A stretch of DNA of 64,000 bases, taken from positions 3,038,001 to 3,102,000 of the forward strand of contig NZ_CP083740.1 in NCBI RefSeq assembly GCF_020150455.1. Direction: 5' to 3'. Below the pieces are notes generated by a model that made no database searches, was not told where the DNA came from, and saw only the letters and a list, made by a program, of their open reading frames with translations. Positions 12,291 to 22,386 of the stretch are shown here, one piece after another. This stretch comes from Bremerella sp. TYQ1. GTDB taxonomy: Bacteria; Planctomycetota; Planctomycetia; Pirellulales; Pirellulaceae. The first letter of the stretch is position 1. Each line of letters begins with the position of its first letter. A program made the position numbers and the translations under genes.

Positions 12291-15200
12291 TCACGAAACC
12301 ACTTCTGTCTTGATCGTCGTTGGGTGAGCTTTCGCTTTCGCCTGAGGATCGGACGTTCGTTTTGTTTTGAAGAAATACGCTCGCATGTAGAACATGCAGG
12401 CAATCCCCCCGATCACGAACAAACATCCCCAATACCGCAGCGCGGTGCCGGGGTCGTAGTTGACCGAGAAGACCGATTTATAAACTTCGGAATCATTGCT
12501 GCGTTTCGGGACGAACTCGCGATACTGCGCAGTCCCAGCCAGATAGGGCCCTTCGAACGACTCCTGGAAGATTCGCAAATCGCGTCCGCCGGCTGGTTCA
12601 GTAAAATCGTCCGGGGCGTTCATCGTGATCCAGACATCGCGTTTCAACAAAGCGGTCTGAGTGAAGAGCAAGTCGCCCGTGTCGGGATCGATGGCCAAGC
12701 CATCTGGCTTGTTCAGCAGCTTGGCATGCAGCACTTCAGGATCGCTCGATGGCTTGCTCAAGTCGAGCACACGAATCACCGTGTTGATCTCTTGCGGAGC
12801 GGAACGATCGATCGCCGGATCGCCCAAATGCTTTCGGGCATTCGGGTCGATGCCGTTGGGCGTTTCATCGCTCCAATACAGCAGCTTGCTCTGGGTATCG
12901 ACCGCCAGACTGTTGGGCCGTCCCTCCTTGGTGTAGGTGTATAAGTACGACGTGCGAGGATCTTCGGTAGACGACTTTCCAATGGCATTGTTGGCGTCGT
13001 CGGCGAAGTAGATCGTCTTCTTCTCAGGGTCGATGGCAAGTGCGGTGACAACGCCGGCACCCTTGAGCCAACTGGTTTCCATTTCGCTGCCGTCGTCTCT
13101 GACTCGGCCAATCGCCTTGCCTGCCGGGTTACCGAAATAGACCCAACCGCTCTCCGAATCAACTGCCAAGCCACGAGGCGTACGGTCGAACATCGTTACT
13201 GCCGTCGGGCTTCCACTGAACAGATCGGCCTGCATCAAGACATCGACGTCGGAACGAGCGAGACGGCTCGACTGCTTGGCAAGCCACCACAGTTTATTGC
13301 CAGCGGTGTCGACCACTAAGTCTCGGGGATCCTTGCCGGCACGCGTCACAATTTCCGTGGCTGGTTCTTCCGGTTTACTCAGATCTTTGACGAGAATCTT
13401 CTGTGTGTTGTCCGCTACGTCAATCCAGTAAAGCATCGAGCCTGCTTTGCCGATCGACGTGGGATTGCGAGCTTCAACCACTTCCAACTGCGTGAACTGA
13501 TCGCTTCCGGATGGAGAACGCATGAAGTAACGATCGTGCTGACGATCGAGATATTGCACGTCACTGGAATAGTGCGACGGCTGCGAAGTACCAGGATCTA
13601 AGCGGCGTTCGAATTGATCGAGCTGGATGCGGAACCCAATCGGGTACGACTTGATCGGCATCGAGAGCTTTACTTCGCGGTCCCCCACGGTCAGCGTATG
13701 CAGCGTTGAACCGTCATCGAGTCCGACATCTGGTTCGTTCATGTGGGCACGCAGCCAAAACTCTTCGGTCTTGGTATCGTCATCCGTTTCGCCTTGCACC
13801 GTCAAACGGACTTTGACTGCAGGCGTGTTGCCCATAGGTCCAGATGCACCAAATGGCAACGGAGCCGGCTGGGCCATCGGCTCGCTTGCGGCGACGAGGC
13901 TTTTCACATACATCCGCAGCGTGGCAAACGGCATCTTGAACGCATCAACCGCATCGAGTTCCGTCGCGTCACTTTTTAGTTCGCCAGAAGCAACGACCTT
14001 TTTGCGATTCCAGTAACGATAGAAGACTCGCTTTGCTTCGGTAGATGATTCGTCTTCCGCCCCTTCGGCAACGCCTTGAATGAGGTCGATCCGAGAACCA
14101 TTGTCGCCACCACGCATGAGCTGGGCCGCATCTTTCTCGCCGAAGTCGTACCAGTAGTGGCCGTAAACATTTTCGGCGAAGCCTTGCATGTTCATCTGCG
14201 GCATGTTGGCCAACAGCGTCAGCTGGTCGACTTTTTCGTCCCCTTTCAGAATGTCGATCACCACGGTCGGATTGCGTGGTTCGGCCCCTTCCTCTTCCGG
14301 GACTTCAACCCAGACGAAGTCCTTGCCATCAACTTGATCGAGCTGTGCCGTGGGGAAATACGACTTAACTTGATAGGTCAAATCAGATGCTTCGATAGGC
14401 TGTGGGTCCTTACCAAGCTGCTCTTTGACGTCAATCACCGTCGTCTTGCCGTCGACATACAGAATGGCTTGACCGTTCTCGCCAATGGAACCTTCTTCCG
14501 GCACGCACTTTAGAAAAGCTTCCGTCGCGGCGCGACTTCCAGCCATGTGAAATGTCATGCTGCCGCCACCGCTACGCTGGCCGTCACCGATGCCGTACTT
14601 ATACTTCGGCTGCTGAGTCGCCTTGAAAACAGACAGCCGCATCGGCATCCACTGCTCGCCAACCGCTTCCATTCGCCCGTCGGCTGCACGCTGAGTCGTC
14701 TCAGGCATGCTCATCATCACTTGAATGGTCGGCGTGTTGTCCCACCATTTGCAATCTGCATAGTAATCGAGCACTTCCAGCTTCACGCCGTCGTGGTTGT
14801 ACATCACGTTGCCGGCGCGGTTTCGCATGGTGATATAAAACACCGGCGTAAACCATTTCGCGAGATCAGGCTCGGCGACTTTCCAATTCTTGAAACCTTC
14901 GCCGTACGATGCCCAGTTGAACATGCCAGGTGCGAAGTCGATCGTATGACGCTGTACTTCATTGACTGCCGGCCCCATCATCGGAGCCCCCATGGCGTCG
15001 TTGTTGACTCGCAGATCGAAGTAGTAGGCGTTGTCGAAAGCGAGCTCGGACGAATCATGTTCCCAGACGTGAACTTGGGCATCGATGCCCTTGCTGCGGC
15101 TGATTGCTCCGCTGAGCAGAAGCATGAGCAATCCGATATGCGTGATCACAAACCCTGTCTGGTGTCGCTTCCAAGGATAACGAATGGCTGCCGCGCAAAA

Positions 15201-15434
15201 GATGTTGACCCCCAACAACCCATAAATCAATCCAAACCACCACGAACGGTAGACATAAAACTGCACGACGTCGGTGTTGAAGGTTGCTTCAACGAACGTG
15301 GCAAAGATCAGCGCAATCGCCATCAAGCTAATCAGCACCACTGCTAAGCTGAGCGATGCTGCGAACTCGTAGAAGTGCAGCAGGATGCGAACCGGAAGAG
15401 GTTGATCAGGGGAGACAAGTTTGGGTCTTGCCAC
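12291..15434 (-). CDS. resB: ResB-like cytochrome c biogenesis protein with inserted beta-propeller
   Basis: Partner of CcsA in System II cytochrome c maturation at the outer face of the membrane. 1047 residues, about twice a usual ResB. N-terminal helices (SLAVVLISLMAIALIFATFVE, WWFGLIYGLLGVNIFCAAA, GFVITHIGLLMLLLSGAIS) and a C-terminal helix (GTALRYWGCLFVIGGIACMF) match ResB, as does the exported stretch before residue 650. Between about residues 665 and 925 lies a run of YWTD/NHL-like propeller blades: LYWIDVADNTQKI, DLVVDTAGNKLWW, GLAVDSESGWVYFG, ALAIDPEKKTIYFA, SLAVDTQSKLLYWS and GLAIDPDTGDLLFT. ResB text resumes with DVWITMNAPDDF. The propeller is therefore an insertion in the exported domain. 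First gene of the resB-ccsA pair. Confidence 0.9.
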   Translation of the reverse strand: MARPKLVSPDQPLPVRILLHFYEFAASLSLAVVLISLMAIALIFATFVEATFNTDVVQFYVYRSWWFGLIYGLLGVNIFCAAAIRYPWKRHQTGFVITHIGLLMLLLSGAISRSKGIDAQVHVWEHDSSELAFDNAYYFDLRVNNDAMGAPMMGPAVNEVQRHTIDFAPGMFNWASYGEGFKNWKVAEPDLAKWFTPVFYITMRNRAGNVMYNHDGVKLEVLDYYADCKWWDNTPTIQVMMSMPETTQRAADGRMEAVGEQWMPMRLSVFKATQQPKYKYGIGDGQRSGGGSMTFHMAGSRAATEAFLKCVPEEGSIGENGQAILYVDGKTTVIDVKEQLGKDPQPIEASDLTYQVKSYFPTAQLDQVDGKDFVWVEVPEEEGAEPRNPTVVIDILKGDEKVDQLTLLANMPQMNMQGFAENVYGHYWYDFGEKDAAQLMRGGDNGSRIDLIQGVAEGAEDESSTEAKRVFYRYWNRKKVVASGELKSDATELDAVDAFKMPFATLRMYVKSLVAASEPMAQPAPLPFGASGPMGNTPAVKVRLTVQGETDDDTKTEEFWLRAHMNEPDVGLDDGSTLHTLTVGDREVKLSMPIKSYPIGFRIQLDQFERRLDPGTSQPSHYSSDVQYLDRQHDRYFMRSPSGSDQFTQLEVVEARNPTSIGKAGSMLYWIDVADNTQKILVKDLSKPEEPATEIVTRAGKDPRDLVVDTAGNKLWWLAKQSSRLARSDVDVLMQADLFSGSPTAVTMFDRTPRGLAVDSESGWVYFGNPAGKAIGRVRDDGSEMETSWLKGAGVVTALAIDPEKKTIYFADDANNAIGKSSTEDPRTSYLYTYTKEGRPNSLAVDTQSKLLYWSDETPNGIDPNARKHLGDPAIDRSAPQEINTVIRVLDLSKPSSDPEVLHAKLLNKPDGLAIDPDTGDLLFTQTALLKRDVWITMNAPDDFTEPAGGRDLRIFQESFEGPYLAGTAQYREFVPKRSNDSEVYKSVFSVNYDPGTALRYWGCLFVIGGIACMFYMRAYFFKTKRTSDPQAKAKAHPTTIKTEVVS

Positions 15435-15910: not shown

Positions 15911-17290
15911 CTACGGCAGCATGCTGAGGATACCATCCATCAATGTGCTGTTGAGTGCATAAGGCTCGTTGTAGCTCCACATGTTCCACATCAAGTCGGT
16001 CGCCATCAGGCCGCACGCGACCAGCAACACTGCCGTGATGCCCAAGCTGAGAACGTTCATGAACGAGTAGGGAACTTCCGCTGGTGCGGCGGCAACAGGA
16101 GCGGCCGCGGCCATCGTTCCACTTCCGGCCATCACGGAATCGTCGTCCGCTTCTAGACCATCACTTTCACCGAGGCCGCCGAAGTCGTCTCCTTCAAGCG
16201 CGGCACTGCCGAACAGGCCTGATTCGGAAGACATCGAATCGGAGTCCAACGCGATCACTTGCGAACCGCTGTCGTCATCTTCCAATTCCCCTTCCACAGG
16301 CGTCAACAGGAAGTCATCTTCTGCCGCCCCTGAGGCTGATTCAGCTACTTCAACTTCTTCGATCTCTTCGACTTCTACCGCCGATACTTCTGCGGCATCG
16401 TCGTCGCTGATCAATTCCAAACCGCTGTCGCCGCTGGAAAGGGAGAAGTCACTGTCATCTTCCGAGTCCGCAGCGAGTCCAACACCACTGTCGTCGTCGA
16501 CCAGGTTGATTTCACTTCCACCCTTGGAAGCAGGTTCGTCGGCGAGACCAAGCTCGCTGTCGGAAGCGAGCAAATCCATGCTGCTGTCTTCGTCATCTTC
16601 GATGTCGAGCGTCAATTCGCCGCTGCTGTCATTGTCGTCCAGCCCAATACCACTGGTTCCGAGATCAAGCGATTCATCGTCTAAGCCAAGGCTTAGGCCA
16701 CTGCCGGTACCTTCTGGGTCAGCAGGTTCGCTACCCAAGTCAATGTTGGCGTCGCTCCCATCGTCGTCGGTTAATGAAAGCTCTTCGTCGTCGTCCGACA
16801 GACTGAAACTATCTTCGTCGACTGGCTTGTTGATGGACGAACCTTCGAGAATGTCCGAACCTTCGCCGAGATCCAAGCTGCTGAGATTGGATTCGCCGGC
16901 AGGGTCGATGCTACTGCTGGAGGAATCTCCCAGTCCGATATCGCTATCCAAGCTGAGCGAGCTGTCGGAATCATCACCGATGATGTTCGAGGAGCCGCTG
17001 TCGCCACCTTCGCCGGTGTCGGAGATAAGCAGGCTGTCCATCGATCCGGACGACCCTTCATCCGAATCGGTCACGCCGCTCAGTTCAAATTCCTGGCTTT
17101 CGCTGTCGCTGCCGCCGAGGCCTTCTTCGGCGAGAACCGCTTTCGCCTTTTCAACTTCGTCTTCCTTGAACTTCCAGCTAGATCCATCTCGGAAAGCGCG
17201 GACTTTGCCACGTTCGCGGAGGTCTTGGATCGTTTCCTCAGAGACACCGAGCTTCTCGGCGAATTCAGAAAGTGGAAGATAATCGGCCAT
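15911..17290 (-). CDS. Excisionase-type DNA-binding domain, long acidic region and C-terminal membrane helix
   Basis: 459 residues from the ATG at 17290, preceded by GGGAG; a TTG twelve bases... earlier in frame (17302) is less likely. Residues 1-50 (DYLPLSEFAEKLGVSEETIQ, then RERGKVRAFRDGSSWKF) are a helix-turn-helix domain of the MerR/excisionase type that normally binds DNA. Residues about 60-395 are almost only Ser, Asp, Glu, Gly and Leu, with SLLISDTGEGGDS-like repeats; this is expected to be disordered and strongly acidic. A single helix (about 411-432, LSLGITAVLLVACGLMATDL) and a short tail end the protein. So a DNA-binding head may be tethered to the membrane by a long flexible acidic linker. 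A terminator follows. Function unknown. Confidence 0.8.
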   Translation of the reverse strand: MADYLPLSEFAEKLGVSEETIQDLRERGKVRAFRDGSSWKFKEDEVEKAKAVLAEEGLGGSDSESQEFELSGVTDSDEGSSGSMDSLLISDTGEGGDSGSSNIIGDDSDSSLSLDSDIGLGDSSSSSIDPAGESNLSSLDLGEGSDILEGSSINKPVDEDSFSLSDDDEELSLTDDDGSDANIDLGSEPADPEGTGSGLSLGLDDESLDLGTSGIGLDDNDSSGELTLDIEDDEDSSMDLLASDSELGLADEPASKGGSEINLVDDDSGVGLAADSEDDSDFSLSSGDSGLELISDDDAAEVSAVEVEEIEEVEVAESASGAAEDDFLLTPVEGELEDDDSGSQVIALDSDSMSSESGLFGSAALEGDDFGGLGESDGLEADDDSVMAGSGTMAAAAPVAAAPAEVPYSFMNVLSLGITAVLLVACGLMATDLMWNMWSYNEPYALNSTLMDGILSMLP

Positions 17291-17346
17291 GATGGCTCCC
17301 AAAAGGTTCCAACCTCGCGGGAAGCCATATTCCTATGGCGACCCCA

Positions 17347-17685
17347 CTACGGTTGGTTGAGCAGTGTGCGAATTTCGCGCGGGCTTGGTTCGCCCCCGTT
17401 AAATTCCTCGATGAGTAAGTCCCATTGTAAGTTGCGAACGCTTTTCAAGGAAACTTTCCCCCCGTTTCCTTCCACATGATAAACGGCCAAAACCCGTGTT
17501 TCGGGGTCGACCATCACCATAAATTGGCCACCACTTTCGCACGGCATATTGTGTACGACCAATCCGCTGGAGACTGGAAGTCCATGCTGCTTTTGGGCCC
17601 ATGCGGACGAGGTATTGCGGAAAAGTTCAGCGCTCAGCGTGACAGCGACCATGACAACGATCGCCGAGAGAAGCGTCTTCCACAT
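17347..17685 (-). CDS. Small secreted protein of unknown function
   Basis: 112 residues with a clear signal peptide (MWKTLLSAIVVMVAVTLSAE) and probable cleavage near SSAWA-Q. The mature part is about 85 residues and beta-rich (GGQFMVMVDPETRVLAVYHV). The start is an ATG with AGGTGAT a few bases upstream. It lies 57 bases before the acidic DNA-binding/membrane protein gene on the same strand and may be cotranscribed with it. I do not recognise the family; similar short exported proteins are common in planctomycetes. Confidence 0.68.
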   Translation of the reverse strand: MWKTLLSAIVVMVAVTLSAELFRNTSSAWAQKQHGLPVSSGLVVHNMPCESGGQFMVMVDPETRVLAVYHVEGNGGKVSLKSVRNLQWDLLIEEFNGGEPSPREIRTLLNQP

Positions 17686-18236: not shown

Positions 18237-19652
18237 ATGTCGATTCTAACGATTAACGAGAGTTTCCCTTTTGTTCCGCCCCCTTCCCCGGGATGTGCGG
18301 TGCCATCGAAAAGGAGTTCGATTGTGCAACAGACGGACGCCCCCAAGATTTCCCAATCCATTGCCGCGAAGCTGGGTTGGCCCCTTTTAATCGGCTCGGC
18401 GCTGACGGTATTGTTCTACGGAGCGATACACTTTGGCCTGGTCCCCAACCACCCGCTGCTTCGCTATGTCACGGCCCATCCGGTCGAATATGCGGAAGTT
18501 GCCATGTTCATGGTCGGTGTCGCAGCATTGTTGCTGAAAGCTGGTCAGCTGGTCGGTGAGTTCCGCTCGCTCCATCATGTCGACTTGCCTCCCCAGGATG
18601 GCAATCGAGCCAAGATCGAACAGGCCCCGTCGCTTCTCGATTCCCTATATCAGCTACCGGAATCGTTTCATCCGACACTTTTGTTCCAGCGGCTTTCCAA
18701 AGGTTTGCAGCATGTTCATGCCAGCCAGACCGCCTCGAACCTGCAGGACGAACTGAAATACCTGGCCGATATCGACCAAGAGAAATGCGAACACGACTAC
18801 TCGATGGTTCGCATCGTTATCTGGGCAACGCCTATGCTCGGCTTTTTGGGTACCGTCATTGGGATCACGCTTGCACTGGGTAATCTTTCACCGGAAGCGT
18901 TGGTCAACGAACCTAAAGTTGCCATGGAAAGCTTGCTGCAAGGATTGAGTGTGGCGTTCGATACGACCGCACTCGCATTGACGCTTTCCATTGGATTGAT
19001 GTTTGCTCAGTTTGTTGTGGGACGCGTCGAATCGGAACTGCTTAACAGTGTCGATGCCATCGCCGCCGACGAGCTGACCGCTCGCTTCGAGACCGAAGGC
19101 AGCGCGACTGATCCGAGCGTCTTGGCCGTGAAAAAGATGGCCGAGCGTACCATTCAAACGACGCAAGACCTGGTCGTTCGCCAAACGGAACTGTGGCGAG
19201 ACACGGTCTCCTCAGCGCATCAGCATTGGCAACGCCTGATCACATCCAGTAGCGAACAGATGGAAACAGCATTGCACAATGCCCTGTCTGAATCGTTGAA
19301 GACGCATGCCGAAGCGTTCGCTTCTGCCCAGCAGCACTCGATTCAGCGTTCAGCCGAACAGCTCAACGGTATTGTCGACGCGTTGTATCAAGTCAGTTCT
19401 TCGATCCACAATCAGCATGAACAGCTGACCGAACAGGGAACGATTTTGCTGAAAGTCGTCGAAGCGACCGGCGAAGTGGCGAGTCTCGAAGAATCGCTCA
19501 ATCGCAATCTGGAAACGTTGGCCGGCAAGCAGCACTTTGAGGAAACAGTTCAAAGCCTCGCCGCAACGATTCACCTGCTTAATTCTCGCATGACTGGAAG
19601 CGGCCACGCTTCGGTCCAACTCGATCGCAAGGACAAAGGTCAAGCCGCGTGA
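18237..19652 (+). CDS. MotA/TolQ/ExbB-family proton channel protein with long cytoplasmic tail
   Basis: 471 residues. Four hydrophobic segments: about 46-68, 84-101, 191-213 and 236-262. The last two carry the family signature: TPMLGFLGTVIGIT with Thr206, and GLSVAFDTTALALTLSIG. In this family five such subunits form a channel around two ExbD/MotB-type helices and use proton flow to do work in the periplasm. After residue 262 comes a tail of about 200 residues that looks helical (MKTHAEAFASAQQHS-like stretches, HNQHEQLTEQGTILL), longer than ExbB or TolQ have. AGGGG precedes the ATG at 18237. It overlaps the next gene by four bases (GTGA), so this is the first gene of a tightly coupled three-gene operon. 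Cargo or target unknown. Confidence 0.88.
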   Translation: MSILTINESFPFVPPPSPGCAVPSKRSSIVQQTDAPKISQSIAAKLGWPLLIGSALTVLFYGAIHFGLVPNHPLLRYVTAHPVEYAEVAMFMVGVAALLLKAGQLVGEFRSLHHVDLPPQDGNRAKIEQAPSLLDSLYQLPESFHPTLLFQRLSKGLQHVHASQTASNLQDELKYLADIDQEKCEHDYSMVRIVIWATPMLGFLGTVIGITLALGNLSPEALVNEPKVAMESLLQGLSVAFDTTALALTLSIGLMFAQFVVGRVESELLNSVDAIAADELTARFETEGSATDPSVLAVKKMAERTIQTTQDLVVRQTELWRDTVSSAHQHWQRLITSSSEQMETALHNALSESLKTHAEAFASAQQHSIQRSAEQLNGIVDALYQVSSSIHNQHEQLTEQGTILLKVVEATGEVASLEESLNRNLETLAGKQHFEETVQSLAATIHLLNSRMTGSGHASVQLDRKDKGQAA

Positions 19653-21313
19653 GTCGACGTCGTTCAGCACGACATACGGTCGAGATCTCGCTGTTCCCCT
19701 TCCTCGCCGTGTTGATCTGTACCATGGGCGCACTAATCGTGCTGTTTGTGGTGATGGTTCTTCAAGCACGTACGGAAGCGGTTGCGGTCGACCTGCCACC
19801 TCTCTCGGTCCCGGCACCTGCCGAAGTGGAACCTGTTGCTCCGGCACCAGAACCACCGCCGCAGGAAGACTACACCGAGCAGATGGAAGAGCTCAAACAG
19901 CTGCGAGAGAAACGTCTCAAGCAGTTGGAGGATGCTCGTTTGCAATTGGCTGGCCTGGAAGACCATAGCCGCCGTTTGACTGACAAAATTCGCAAGCTTC
20001 GCGCAGACATTGCAGTGCTTGAAGGAGAAACCGACAACGTCACCGGCAGCGCCGACGACTTCGAGACGCAGAAGAAACGCCTCGACGCAGAGATTGCCCA
20101 AGCACAAGCGGAACTCGAGCAAGTTCGCAAAGAGATCGAAGGACGCAAGCCCGCCTACGCGCTGGTTCCTTACGATGGCCAAAGTGGCACGCGACGCCAG
20201 CCAATTTACATTGAATGCACGGCCGACCGCGTTATCATTCAGCCGGAAGGTATCGGCCTTTCAGGAAACGATTTCCAAGAGCCTCTCGGCCCCGGCAACC
20301 CACTCGCAGCATCACTACGCACCATTCGCGAATACCGTCAATCGCAAGGCATTCCAGGCCAAGGAAATCCTTACCCGTTGCTGGTGGTTCGTCCTGGAGG
20401 TGCAGAGTCGTATGCCGCGGCGCGAGAAGCGCTTAATGGCTGGGACGACGAGTTCGGCTATGAATTGGTCGACGAAGACACCAAGCTTGCCTATCCACCG
20501 GCCGATCGCTTTCTGGCCAAACAGCTGATTGAAACGGTCGAACTTGCTCGACGTCGCAAGATCGCGTTGATCATGGCAGCACCGAAGAAGTATGGTCGAC
20601 TGGAAGATCAGCATCTTGCCGCGACACGTAACGGGGGCTTCCAGCCGGTAGGTGGCGGTGGCAACGGCGACGAAGAATTCCTCGCCAACCGATTCGTTGA
20701 CGGAGGCCATGGCACCAGCAACATGCCAGCGGAAACGTACGGCGGGTCAGGCCAACTGGGCGGCGGAGAAGCAACCAACATGCTTGAGCAAAGCCAGCAG
20801 CGACGCGGTGAACAAACGTCCGGCCCAGGCTTTTACTCTGGCCAGGCTCCACCTGAACAACAGTCAGCCGATGGCCAACGTGGTTCTCCTTATGCTCAAC
20901 AAGCCGGCCCGAACCAACCGAATGCTTCCGGCGGCCAAGGCGGAAGTCGCTCGTCTGCGACGCCCCTGGCAGCCAAGCGTGGCAGTAACTGGGCACTTCC
21001 CGGCGCCGGACCCAAGAACACGGCAATTACTCGCCCCGTAACACTCGTTGTCAGCGGCACCCAAATGACTCTCGTGCAAGAGCGAGGCGTCTTGGGACCA
21101 GCGGAGACGGTCCCTGTCGATGGCAACATGGAAGCGGCCGCCGATAAACTGGTTCGCTTGATTCATACTCGGATCGACAGCTGGGGGATGGCAGGCCGCA
21201 ACTTCTACTGGAAGCCAATCCTGCAGATCACCGTCGAGCAAGGTGGCGATCCAGTCGTTCAGCAATTGGAAACGCTTCTTTACGGATCTGGTATCGAGGT
21301 GAATCGCAAGTGA
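19649..21313 (+). CDS. ExbD/TolR-like membrane protein lacking the membrane aspartate
   Basis: 554 residues, GTG start overlapping the TGA of the channel gene. One membrane helix at residues 15-38 (EISLFPFLAVLICTMGALIV) sits where ExbD and TolR have theirs. In those proteins the motif is P-[FL]-[IL]-D-V; here it is PFLAV, so Ala20 stands in place of the proton-carrying Asp. A Pro-rich stretch (45-72) leads to a coiled coil (about 75-170, QMEELKQLREKRLKQLEDAR), then a folded domain, a Gly/Gln-rich linker (about 330-445) and a C-terminal domain (TLVVSGTQMTLVQERG). The exported part matches no OmpA-type peptidoglycan-binding domain that I recognise. The next gene encodes the likely partner. Confidence 0.75.
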   Translation: MSRRRSARHTVEISLFPFLAVLICTMGALIVLFVVMVLQARTEAVAVDLPPLSVPAPAEVEPVAPAPEPPPQEDYTEQMEELKQLREKRLKQLEDARLQLAGLEDHSRRLTDKIRKLRADIAVLEGETDNVTGSADDFETQKKRLDAEIAQAQAELEQVRKEIEGRKPAYALVPYDGQSGTRRQPIYIECTADRVIIQPEGIGLSGNDFQEPLGPGNPLAASLRTIREYRQSQGIPGQGNPYPLLVVRPGGAESYAAAREALNGWDDEFGYELVDEDTKLAYPPADRFLAKQLIETVELARRRKIALIMAAPKKYGRLEDQHLAATRNGGFQPVGGGGNGDEEFLANRFVDGGHGTSNMPAETYGGSGQLGGGEATNMLEQSQQRRGEQTSGPGFYSGQAPPEQQSADGQRGSPYAQQAGPNQPNASGGQGGSRSSATPLAAKRGSNWALPGAGPKNTAITRPVTLVVSGTQMTLVQERGVLGPAETVPVDGNMEAAADKLVRLIHTRIDSWGMAGRNFYWKPILQITVEQGGDPVVQQLETLLYGSGIEVNRK

Positions 21314-22386
21314 GACGCCCCGCGAAAAAAACAAGTGGCGACAATAACGCCCCTTCGCTCGATTCGTTTCTCGACGTGGTCACCAACCTGGTCGGCATTC
21401 TGATCATCTTGATTATGGTGGTCGGAATCACGGCGCGAGATGCCATCGTTGATGCGGCCCTTGGTGAAACCGAACCGACAAAGCCGCCAGCACTGTCGAT
21501 TCCAGCTCCTGTCGAACCAGAAGTAGAAGAACCTTCGCCGCCACAGCCGAAGGGACCGACACTGGAAGAACTGAACAGCATGGCCCAGAGTGTCGCGGCC
21601 ATTCAGCAAGACATCATGCAAGTACAAGAGCAATCCAAACTAGCGTTCGAGGAACGCAACCAGTTGCAGCTCTTTCTGACGTCTGCAGAAACGACTTTGA
21701 ATCAAAAGCAGGAAGAGCTTTCGGCGACCAAACAGCAGGAAGTTACCGAGCAGCGCGAGCTATTGCAAACGACGCAGCAGTTGGAGCAACTTTACGATCA
21801 AATCGAAAGCCTGCGTGACTATCGCCCGGAAGTGAAAGAACTGGCACATTACCCAACGCCACTCGCGAAAACTGTGTTCGGCAAGGAAGAGCACTTTCGC
21901 TTGAAGCATGGGCGGATTTCGTACGTGCCGATGGAACGTCTCGTCGAAGCGATGAAGAACGATGCTCGTAACCACCTCGATCGGGCTCGACGCGAAGGCA
22001 AAGTAGTCACTCGCATCGGTCCCATGAACGGTTATGTGATGGAGTACACTCTCGTTAGCCGCTCGTACGAAATGGAAACTTCACTTGGGACGGCAACGCG
22101 TGGGGGCGTCGAACTGCAGAACTTCACGCTCGAGTCCGAGATGCCAGAGCTAGGATATCCTGTCAACGAAGCCCTTCAGCCTGGTTCCAGATTTCGTGAA
22201 ATCATTGCTTCGCTCGATCCGAGCCGGACGACGATCACCATCTGGACTTACCCTGACAGCTTTGAAGACTTCCGAACCGTCCGCGACGATTTATATGAGA
22301 TTGGTTTCACAACCGCTGCGCGACCACTTCCAGCCGACTACCCCATCGGCGGCAGCCCCCAAGGCTCTCGCTCATCTTCGCAGTAG
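21310..22386 (+). CDS. ExbD/TolR-like membrane protein with conserved aspartate
   Basis: 358 residues, GTG start overlapping the TGA of the gene before it. Residues 15-40 read SLDSFLDVVTNLVGILIILI, close to the ExbD pattern in which the Asp (here Asp22) carries protons through the channel. A Pro-rich stretch and a coiled coil follow (about 75-165, QVQEQSKLAFEERNQLQLFL), then a C-terminal domain of about 170 residues (FGKEEHFRLKHGRISYVP, RTTITIWTYPDSFEDFR) that I do not recognise. It would be exported. With the gene before it, it probably forms the two-helix core of an ExbB5-ExbD2-like complex. Last gene of the operon. Confidence 0.78.
   Translation: MRRPAKKTSGDNNAPSLDSFLDVVTNLVGILIILIMVVGITARDAIVDAALGETEPTKPPALSIPAPVEPEVEEPSPPQPKGPTLEELNSMAQSVAAIQQDIMQVQEQSKLAFEERNQLQLFLTSAETTLNQKQEELSATKQQEVTEQRELLQTTQQLEQLYDQIESLRDYRPEVKELAHYPTPLAKTVFGKEEHFRLKHGRISYVPMERLVEAMKNDARNHLDRARREGKVVTRIGPMNGYVMEYTLVSRSYEMETSLGTATRGGVELQNFTLESEMPELGYPVNEALQPGSRFREIIASLDPSRTTITIWTYPDSFEDFRTVRDDLYEIGFTTAARPLPADYPIGGSPQGSRSSSQ

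Follow-up and report, generated by a model that had tools for sequence, protein, structure and literature searches.

Must both helices of the axle in an ion-driven ring motor carry a carboxylate? The question is raised by an operon in a 64,000-nucleotide stretch of Bremerella sp. TYQ1 DNA (hereafter the window), in which a ring-type gene is followed by genes for two different partners. The operon consists of ORF1 (18237..19652, 471 aa), a ring or channel protein; ORF2 (19649..21313, 554 aa), the candidate axle partner that lacks the pore Asp; and ORF3 (21310..22386, 358 aa), the candidate axle partner that bears it. All three lie on the + strand, and the ORF coordinates and the sequence bear out the initial annotation in that the genes overlap by GTGA, once where ORF1 stops and ORF2 starts (19649..19652) and again where ORF2 stops and ORF3 starts (21310..21313). 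The order ring–partner–partner recurs in successive clades of related loci (clade A, clade B and a deep clade), and most loci have short gaps or four-base overlaps; in clade A, a start codon giving a four-base overlap is present at the ORF1/ORF2 junction in 77 of 93 loci and at the ORF2/ORF3 junction in 55 of 93.

ORF1 had been described as a MotA/TolQ/ExbB-type protein with a tail of about 200 residues. Indeed, the Pfam family MotA_ExbB (PF01618) matches residues 153–267 with 48.9 bits against a cut-off of 22.9, and some 200 residues lie C-terminal of the match. The two pore helices hold residues that the family conserves, namely P199, G202, G205, T206 and T244, and all five are identical in the five ExbB-type ring proteins compared from this genome. 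In motors of this kind, Thr, Pro and Gly residues of the ring and the Asp of the partner are parts of the ion path. A search of ORF1 by sequence against solved structures returned only two matches, both insignificant and both to flagellar MotA (E 0.31 and 0.35). The long cytoplasmic tail of ORF1 and its weak match to the PADLOC model for ZorA2 (34.2 bits) might point to a Zorya-like anti-phage system. We regard this as extremely improbable: the NCBIfam ZorA model, whose cut-off is 500, gave 22.9 bits, neither ORF2 nor ORF3 matched ZorB, and relatives of the operon, present in 39 of the 40 genomes sampled from the window's class, have recurrent neighbors, unlike a patchy defense island.

The two partners share a plan. 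ORF2 begins with a helix containing FPFLAVLIC, which is followed by a Pro-rich link, a coiled coil (about residues 72–166), an alpha/beta-looking domain (about 174–290), a Gly-rich linker and a C-terminal domain (about 455–554), whereas ORF3 consists of a helix containing DSFLDVVTN, a coiled coil (about 84–178) and a C-terminal domain (about 180–345); these limits are approximate and are our own reading, for ORF2 of the sequence together with the alignment. Codon by codon, we confirmed the PFLAV of ORF2, with Ala20 (GCC, 19706..19708, +) at the place of the pore Asp, and the SFLDV of ORF3, with Asp22 (GAC, 21373..21375, +). Asp22 is the sole carboxylate of the two putative axle helices at the pore position. 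Relatives of ORF2, where the source names them, are mostly "hypothetical" or carry labels such as IncA or TMF family.

The partners had also been called ExbD-like, a description that stands by position and pattern; sequence kinship with ExbD was not detected. Pfam ExbD (PF02472) did not match ORF2 or ORF3 up to E = 1, hhalign comparison of six profiles with ten ExbDs from the same genome gave probabilities of at most 1.9% with an ExbD profile of only ten rows, and ExbD was absent among the first 25 of 78 families listed for 48 deep relatives and among the first 25 of 112 listed for 120 ORF3 homologues. Nor did either partner match, up to E = 1 in Pfam, the OmpA-like peptidoglycan-binding domain that is a feature of MotB. 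The von Willebrand-type vWA domain, matched by 5 of the 48 distant relatives, found no match in the window proteins in the Pfam scan. Searches of the 48 deep relatives against NCBIfam and PADLOC yielded mostly coiled-coil noise, with one weak match to ZorB1 (0.0045) and two to ZorA2, and three partner profiles searched by sequence against solved structures recovered coiled-coil proteins and other weak matches. The domain scans of ORF1, ORF2 and ORF3 are consistent with the earlier view that, by domain content, the operon is none of Tol, Ton, Mot or Zorya.

Profile comparison indicates that the second and third partners are homologous to each other. ORF2 and ORF3 match directly over helix and coil only (95.9%) and match deep third-gene relatives with 98.7% and 99.7%, respectively; in the deep clade and in clade B the match between second and third partners takes in the end domain as well as the helix and coil (99.7% and 98.6%, respectively). 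The C-terminal part of ORF2 gave a second, weak match to the end domain of the deep relatives (profile positions 472–562, probability 55%). Homology over helix, coil and end domain is what would be expected of two halves of one axle.

How well is the difference at the pore position conserved? Among the best 120 of 2035 matches to ORF2 (scoring being limited to the 7995 candidates with the most shared words), position 20 is Ala in 113 and Asp in two (P0053 and P0119), and five start behind it. Among the best 120 of 1584 matches to ORF3, position 22 is Asp in 119, and the remaining one (P0231) starts behind it. The pore residue of P0100, P0104, P0119, P0175, P0207 and P0226 was read by eye and not by pattern. 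The next count took in 131 loci, each with a single readable second partner and a single readable third partner; at least one locus is a second contig copy (L271 of L070). The third-gene partner carries Asp in all 131, and the second carries Ala in 88, Ser in 15, Thr in one and Asp in 27; a third partner without Asp was found in 0 of the 131. Alignment of homologues, which the initial annotation had named as the check on its Ala/Asp pair, shows a conserved split, Ala/Asp or Ser/Asp, with none of the 131 loci having it the other way round.

One study (PMC9093738), in its accessible text, calls the axle Asp of the flagellar stator essential, so an Asp-less partner could poison an axle. ORF2 could on this account be a regulator, with mixed axles standing idle and the number of working motors set by the ORF2:ORF3 ratio, but the protein is conserved together with exported domains of its own, and its overlaps with both neighbors in most clade-A loci better fit a fixed part. 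We therefore consider a regulatory role improbable.

Asp-bearing homologues of the 554-residue protein had been put forward as evidence that would speak against an asymmetric axle. Such homologues exist: P0053, P0119, L102, L120, 16 more loci and one further locus with Glu. The readable rings that go with acid-bearing homologues are of a different subtype (those of P0053 and P0119 are unread). These homologues refine, and do not refute, the idea of an asymmetric axle.

The two ring subtypes differ at two positions: the window's ring has Gly209 (codon 18861..18863, +), where the sister type has His, and Asp242 (codon 18960..18962, +, in AFDTT), where the sister type has Asn. The second partner is acidic in none of the 103 rows whose ring is of the window's type, two of these rows being second contig copies (L382 of L092 and L377 of L093), versus 19 of 21 with the His type; the two exceptions, L370 and L362, have Ala or Ser. 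Among the 21 His-ring rows, the second partner follows the ring gene in 8, sits beside it on the other strand in 3 and is on another contig of the same genome in 10. That the acid tracks the ring type suggests that the ORF2 helix is in functional contact with the ring.

Few independent changes underlie this association. The His rings form one clade, and a ring tree with more His rings (21 His rows, 45 others and 8 outgroup rows) gives two sister clades. The ORF2 tree, unlike the ring tree, scatters the Asp-bearing rows (8–9 changes) and provides only 4–5 supported independent pairs (p 0.125 at best), in a test that left out L371 (from the genome of L120), L271, four clade-B rows and three rows with an unread ring; the later ORF2-tree sample comprised all 21 His rows and 50 of the 103 others. 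In the first trees, whose sample was every non-Ala row plus the window and a further 35 Ala/Asp rows, L102 was basal to clade A in the ring tree and Asp-bearing rows were nested singly among Ala rows in the ORF2 tree; one further tree held 52 rows.

Ring position 242 is Asp in 96% of 84 clade-A rings and Asn in 22 of 22 His-ring rows (one row being a duplicate). We examined and discarded the idea of a universal swap of the acid between this position and the second partner, as rings of clade B (57% Asp and 43% Asn, with Ser in the partners) and of the deep clade (mostly Glu, with Asp in the partners) break the pattern.

The stalks of the two partners, measured as the spacer from the pore residue to the end domain, covary in length. 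The correlation between ORF2-type and ORF3-type spacers is r = 0.96 both in clade A (n = 91) and in the deep clade (n = 22). Computed from independent contrasts along a ring tree that spans 116 loci, it is 0.90 (115 contrasts), against 0.07–0.15 for six control pairs of lengths; the corresponding values are 0.91 versus 0.03–0.17 in clade A and 0.89 in the deep clade (20 loci), where control pairs reach 0.27, 0.35 and 0.43. Spacers in clade B are uncorrelated (r = 0.1, n = 13, over a narrow range). A recheck with plain motifs agreed in clade A (r = 0.91, 29 of 91 loci readable) and disagreed in the deep clade (r = 0.06, 8 of 22 readable). Charge complementarity of the coils hardly differed between cognate and non-cognate pairs (–0.04 versus 0.02, 76 loci).

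Matched stalk lengths could also come from two separate homodimers that have to reach the same target. ORF3 would then form a two-Asp homodimeric axle, and ORF2, whose exported part is the longer of the two and contains the Gly-rich linker, would be a TonB/TolA-like anchored part on the ring exterior that carries the force; a different helix motif attaches transducers of TonB/TolA topology to the edge of the ring, according to the accessible text of a recent study (PMC12204202). Three observations argue against this arrangement, which we judge unlikely though the strongest of the alternatives: the ORF2 family is homologous to that of ORF3, helix included; the second partner has Asp at the same place in 27 of 131 loci; and residue 20 of ORF2 tracks the ring type.

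In a survey of 80 loci and the window, many of them ended by contig edges and with clusters judged by eye, the commonest flanking gene, upstream and on the other strand, was present in 32 of 81 sets, and others were rarer; we read the recurrent neighbors as vertical synteny. No gene of known envelope function stood out by eye, which would be compatible with the ring fold serving, without rotation, in an ion-gated tether or sensor. This is a still less probable reading than a regulatory ORF2, given that the conserved Thr, Pro and Gly residues of the ring and the Asp of ORF3 are ion-path parts of motors. The window genome has a second operon of the same type, with Ser/Asp, and in a paralogous system of one genus the second and third genes were not found together. 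ExbB, ExbD, MotA, TolQ, Tol-Pal and biopolymer are all absent from the main text, as far as accessible, of an essential-gene study of Planctopirus limnophila.

With some confidence we favor an ion-driven ring motor of the MotAB/TolQR/ExbBD kind, a variant of the 5:2 motors with a heterodimeric one-Asp axle. The ring would be a pentamer of ORF1, with one ORF2 helix and one ORF3 helix standing side by side inside it (5:1:1). Beyond the membrane the two chains would run on in parallel as a two-stranded coiled coil, matched in length, and finish in two unlike end domains. ORF3 alone would bear the ion-binding Asp, giving one axle carboxylate and not two; the passive half would be ORF2, which would also bear the larger exported part. 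A single axle carboxylate would imply about five ion transits per turn, not ten, and steps of 72 degrees, not 36. The ring would supply Asp242, which is absent from the two-acid sister type, and a natural guess is that force would be passed to the cell wall or outer membrane. The genes, their residues and conservation, the kinship of the two partners and the covariation are what the analysis shows; stoichiometry, ion flow, rotation, location and task are inferred from them. The asymmetry proposed in the initial annotation gains from the conserved Ala-or-Ser/Asp split, the covarying stalks and the tracking of ring type, and is qualified by the Asp-bearing homologues of ORF2. More tentatively, the operon may encode a natural one-site rotary motor, with fivefold stepping on five ions per turn from its single axle carboxylate and the lost acid balanced by ring Asp242; the sister His209/Asn242 ring would run with two axle acids, acids having been traded between ring and axle in evolution.

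Such a motor would resemble several known systems, each in part. The 5:2 motors ExbBD, TolQR and MotAB share with it the Pfam ring family and a directly downstream partner with an N-terminal helix and pore Asp, but the window has two different partners, one without Asp, with coiled coils and end domains of their own. The AglRQS gliding motor of Myxococcus likewise combines a single ring protein with two MotB-like partners that differ from each other; the accessible text of a review (PMC9389320) states that it is unknown whether these form heterodimers and, in a comparison made here by description, predicts the conserved Asp in both. Published TPH-vWA proteins, as far as the accessible text of their report goes (PMC12204202), form heterologous pairs beside a TolQ-like ring gene and have a trans-pore helix with Asp, and the vWA domain in 5 of the 48 distant relatives recalls them; unlike these pairs, the window proteins match no vWA. 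The same text describes tolQ followed by a tolR-like pair in the PVC group, and the window genome has four such ExbB-ExbD-ExbD loci, but all eight of their ExbDs keep the Asp, as do ten of the ten ordinary ExbDs read from the genome, these eight included (an eleventh, partial Pfam match of 25.6 bits is outside the count). Finally, GldLM requires a ring carboxylate, GldL E49 (PMC8986121, accessible text), to which Asp242 of ORF1 may be compared; its axle, compared by description, consists of two copies of GldM.

In the accessible text of the same review (PMC9389320), the tenfold rotational symmetry of 5:2 motors is held to be "almost certain to be a universal feature". We found no report of a one-Asp heteromeric axle in the open-access literature so far as its text was accessible, which does not prove that none exists. 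If true, a conserved heterodimeric axle with one Asp would be a natural exception and could serve to test how many carboxylates a stroke needs. Within a single family, one-acid and two-acid versions occur with ring residues to match, which would amount to an experiment on the ion path already set up by nature.

The three genes at 18237-22386, in a genome of 6.66 Mb assembled as a single contig, are linked by GTGA overlaps, as the initial annotation had it. The first (ORF1, 18237-19652, + strand) encodes a MotA/TolQ/ExbB ring protein, the family already assigned from its signature (48.9 bits in a Pfam search), and it keeps the residues kept in ExbB-type ring proteins. The products of the second gene (ORF2, 19649-21313, +; 554 residues) and the third (ORF3, 21310-22386, +; 358 residues) reached no Pfam cut-off, and their sub-threshold matches were for the most part to coiled-coil families. 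The N-terminal helix is SLFPFLAVLICTMGALIV in ORF2 and LDSFLDVVTNLVGILII in ORF3, and the position equivalent to Asp22 of ORF3 holds Ala20 in ORF2. Among the matches listed, the nearest named homologues of ORF2 were from Bremerella/Blastopirellula.

A protein search returned at least 2035 relatives of ORF2 and 1584 of ORF3, and the pore residue was read in the best 120 of each. The asymmetry first described for the window pair held in both sets: the ORF2 homologues have Ala in 113 of 120 cases (Asp in two, position missing in five), and the ORF3 homologues have Asp in 119 of 120 (missing in one). A scan of species genomes with an ORF3 profile found 218 relatives, and 80 loci were kept with their context. 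With the window's own genes these made 81 sets, of which 71 hold a single relative each of the ring, ORF2, and ORF3; the other ten comprised one set with an extra ORF3 match, eight without a ring, and one with ORF3 alone, and eight of the last nine end at a contig edge. The commonest upstream neighbor (32 of 81 sets) corresponds to 15911-17302 (− strand), a protein that, read by eye, starts like an excisionase, continues with a long stretch rich in Asp and Ser, and is hydrophobic at its end. A small, exported-looking protein (17347-17685, −) is kept upstream in 20 of 81 sets. The gene at 12291-15434 (−) encodes a 1047-residue protein resembling ResB-type membrane proteins of cytochrome c biogenesis, with an insert rich in repeats.

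In phylum-wide searches, relatives were found in 64 of 392 genomes and, by a count of class rows in the same table, in 39 of the 40 genomes of the window's class. We read pore residues by profile alignment in regions fetched around many of these matches, counting only the 131 loci in which one partner of each kind, and no more, was readable. Loci of the window type (clade A) were Ala/Asp in 88 cases, Thr/Asp in one, and Asp/Asp in two (second/third partner). Another 15 were Ser/Asp, namely 14 paralogous operons (clade B) and an outlier, L291, and 25 loci of the deep clades of distant relatives, with FxFQD/LELLLD or SFLD/SFLD, were Asp/Asp. Removing rows without the ring motif and one duplicate left 123 rows (83 Ala/Asp, 15 Ser/Asp, 1 Thr/Asp, and 24 Asp/Asp). 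The acid was never lost from the third-gene partner in the 131 loci.

Profile comparison of second with third partners gave 99.7% in the deep clade and 98.6% in clade B over helix, coil, and end domain, and the ORF2 profile matched the deep third-gene profile at 98.7% over positions 5-285. The direct comparison within clade A gave 95.9% over helix and coil only, a score that the coils could raise. Judged by these profiles, the two partners are relatives of each other. The helices had also been called ExbD-like; their place and pattern fit, but sequence kinship was not found, no comparison with ten ExbDs of the same genome exceeding 1.9%. Kinship with ExbD is plausible by place and pattern. The vWA matches in 5 of 48 deep relatives recall TolQ-vWA pairs, for which PMC12204202 describes a trans-pore helix. 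Separately, the C-terminal part of ORF2 has a second weak likeness (55%) to the end domain of the deep relatives, and 20168-20518 and 21011-21310 are a possible internal duplication.

The same genome carries a second, paralogous ring-partner-partner operon at about 4485477-4489286 (L132:3478-7287), with FPFLSVLAC in the second partner and LDSLLDTMFN in the third. Its second partner lacks Asp in all 120 homologues listed of 437 (119 Ser, 1 Ala). The ring protein of this operon starts with a Cys-rich CxxC...CxxC stretch, by its letters zinc-ribbon-like, which is present too in other clade B rings (L164, L169, and L176); an ExbD elsewhere in the genome (L136:3834-4538, −) likewise has a zinc-ribbon-like Cys motif before its helix. 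In the paralogous system of genus g6, the second partner adjoins the ring gene and the third lies elsewhere (L165, L167, L180-L182; L178, L179, L284-L290), the two together in none of the fetched stretches. Ordinary ExbDs of the genome keep Asp in all ten read, four heterologous pairs included; the weakest of the 11 Pfam ExbD matches (25.6 bits, profile positions 46-124 only) lies outside the ten. Thus, loss of the acid goes with the partner family of the window rather than with the presence of two partners.

Two Asp-bearing clade A loci (L102 and L120, the latter with its ring gene on another contig) share one ring subtype, as sisters with support 100/99. We therefore scanned 296 genomes of the order for it. 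Matches in 247 genomes fell into two groups, with 20 genomes at 315-846 bits and all others at or below 216, and all 20 have His209 and Asn242 in the ring (GTV[VIL]HFG, AFNTT). With L102 added and L120 counted once, its genome being among the 20, these made 21 rows, in which the second partner, read wherever it lay, behind the ring or in another part of the genome, has Asp in 18, Glu in one, Ser in one, and Ala in one. None of the 103 second partners that go with the window's ring type (Gly209 and Asp242 in ORF1 itself) is acidic at the pore position (102 Ala, 1 Thr; 19 control fetches included); among 104 such rows, residue 242 is Asp in 101, Asn in two, and Gly in one. In a ring tree computed without the pore segment, the His rings group as a single clade (100/98), next to the ordinary rings (95/79). 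On the ORF2 tree, their rows are scattered, with 8-9 changes on the best tree; counting supported branches only, there are 4-5 independent pairs, and no pair runs in the opposite direction. The association, strong in counts, thus has few independent events beneath it, with either movement of the ring gene between lineages or uncertainty in the ORF2 tree as the explanation. Ring gene and second partner are on different contigs in ten of the 21 His-ring genomes and divergent in three more (L306/L371 and L120; L352, L354-L358, L362, L367, L370). Most ordinary rings read lie directly before the second-partner gene.

The match of the ORF2 pore residue to the ring suggests a place for the ORF2 helix inside the pore. 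Together with the retained ring residues and the Asp of ORF3, this favors one ring enclosing one ORF2 and one ORF3 helix. Stalk lengths, taken in both partners as the distance between the pore residue and the beginning of the end domain, span 79/86 to 296/300 residues and match between partners. Across 91 clade A loci the correlation is r = 0.96, and 22 deep-clade loci give the same value; the 13 clade B loci, whose lengths cover a narrow range, give r = 0.1. Independent contrasts on a tree built from the rings of 116 loci gave r = 0.90 (115 contrasts) versus 0.07-0.15 for six control length pairs. Within clade A they gave 0.91 (0.77 without long outliers; controls at most 0.17), and in 20 deep-clade loci 0.89 (controls up to 0.43). 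A motif-based recheck gave r = 0.91 in clade A (29 of 91 loci readable) and 0.06 in the deep clade (8 of 22 readable). A parallel coiled coil formed by the two proteins would show such covariation, as could two separate homodimers that extend to the same target.

In the favored arrangement of one ring around a mixed helix pair, ORF3 would supply the invariant Asp. The mechanism set out in PMC9389320 has ten ions per turn in 36-degree steps; extended to a single axle Asp, it would give five. Ring Asp242 may replace the missing axle acid, by analogy with the ring Glu that PMC8986121 describes as needed in GldL, although Asp242 is not required, since 43% of clade B rings have Asn there. The coiled-coil stalks and end domains that lie outside the membrane suggest that force is passed on to the wall or outer membrane. 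Wide occurrence in the class and recurrent neighbors favor a core function over defense; no further operon gene recurred in the loci read.

ORF1 belongs to the ring family, and tests of the partners by sequence did not place them in the ExbD family. Sequence tests placed the window proteins with neither MotB nor Zorya, in agreement with the view that the system is neither Mot nor Zorya, and the vWA domain of TPH-vWA pairs likewise drew no match in them. Rings with two partners are already known, in AglRQS (PMC9389320) and in PVC TolQ with two TolR-like genes and vWA pairs (PMC12204202); the passages cited describe Asp in both partners of AglRQS and of the vWA pairs, whereas the window pair has one. 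We found no report of a conserved one-acid pair, or of its tie to ring type, in the literature searched.
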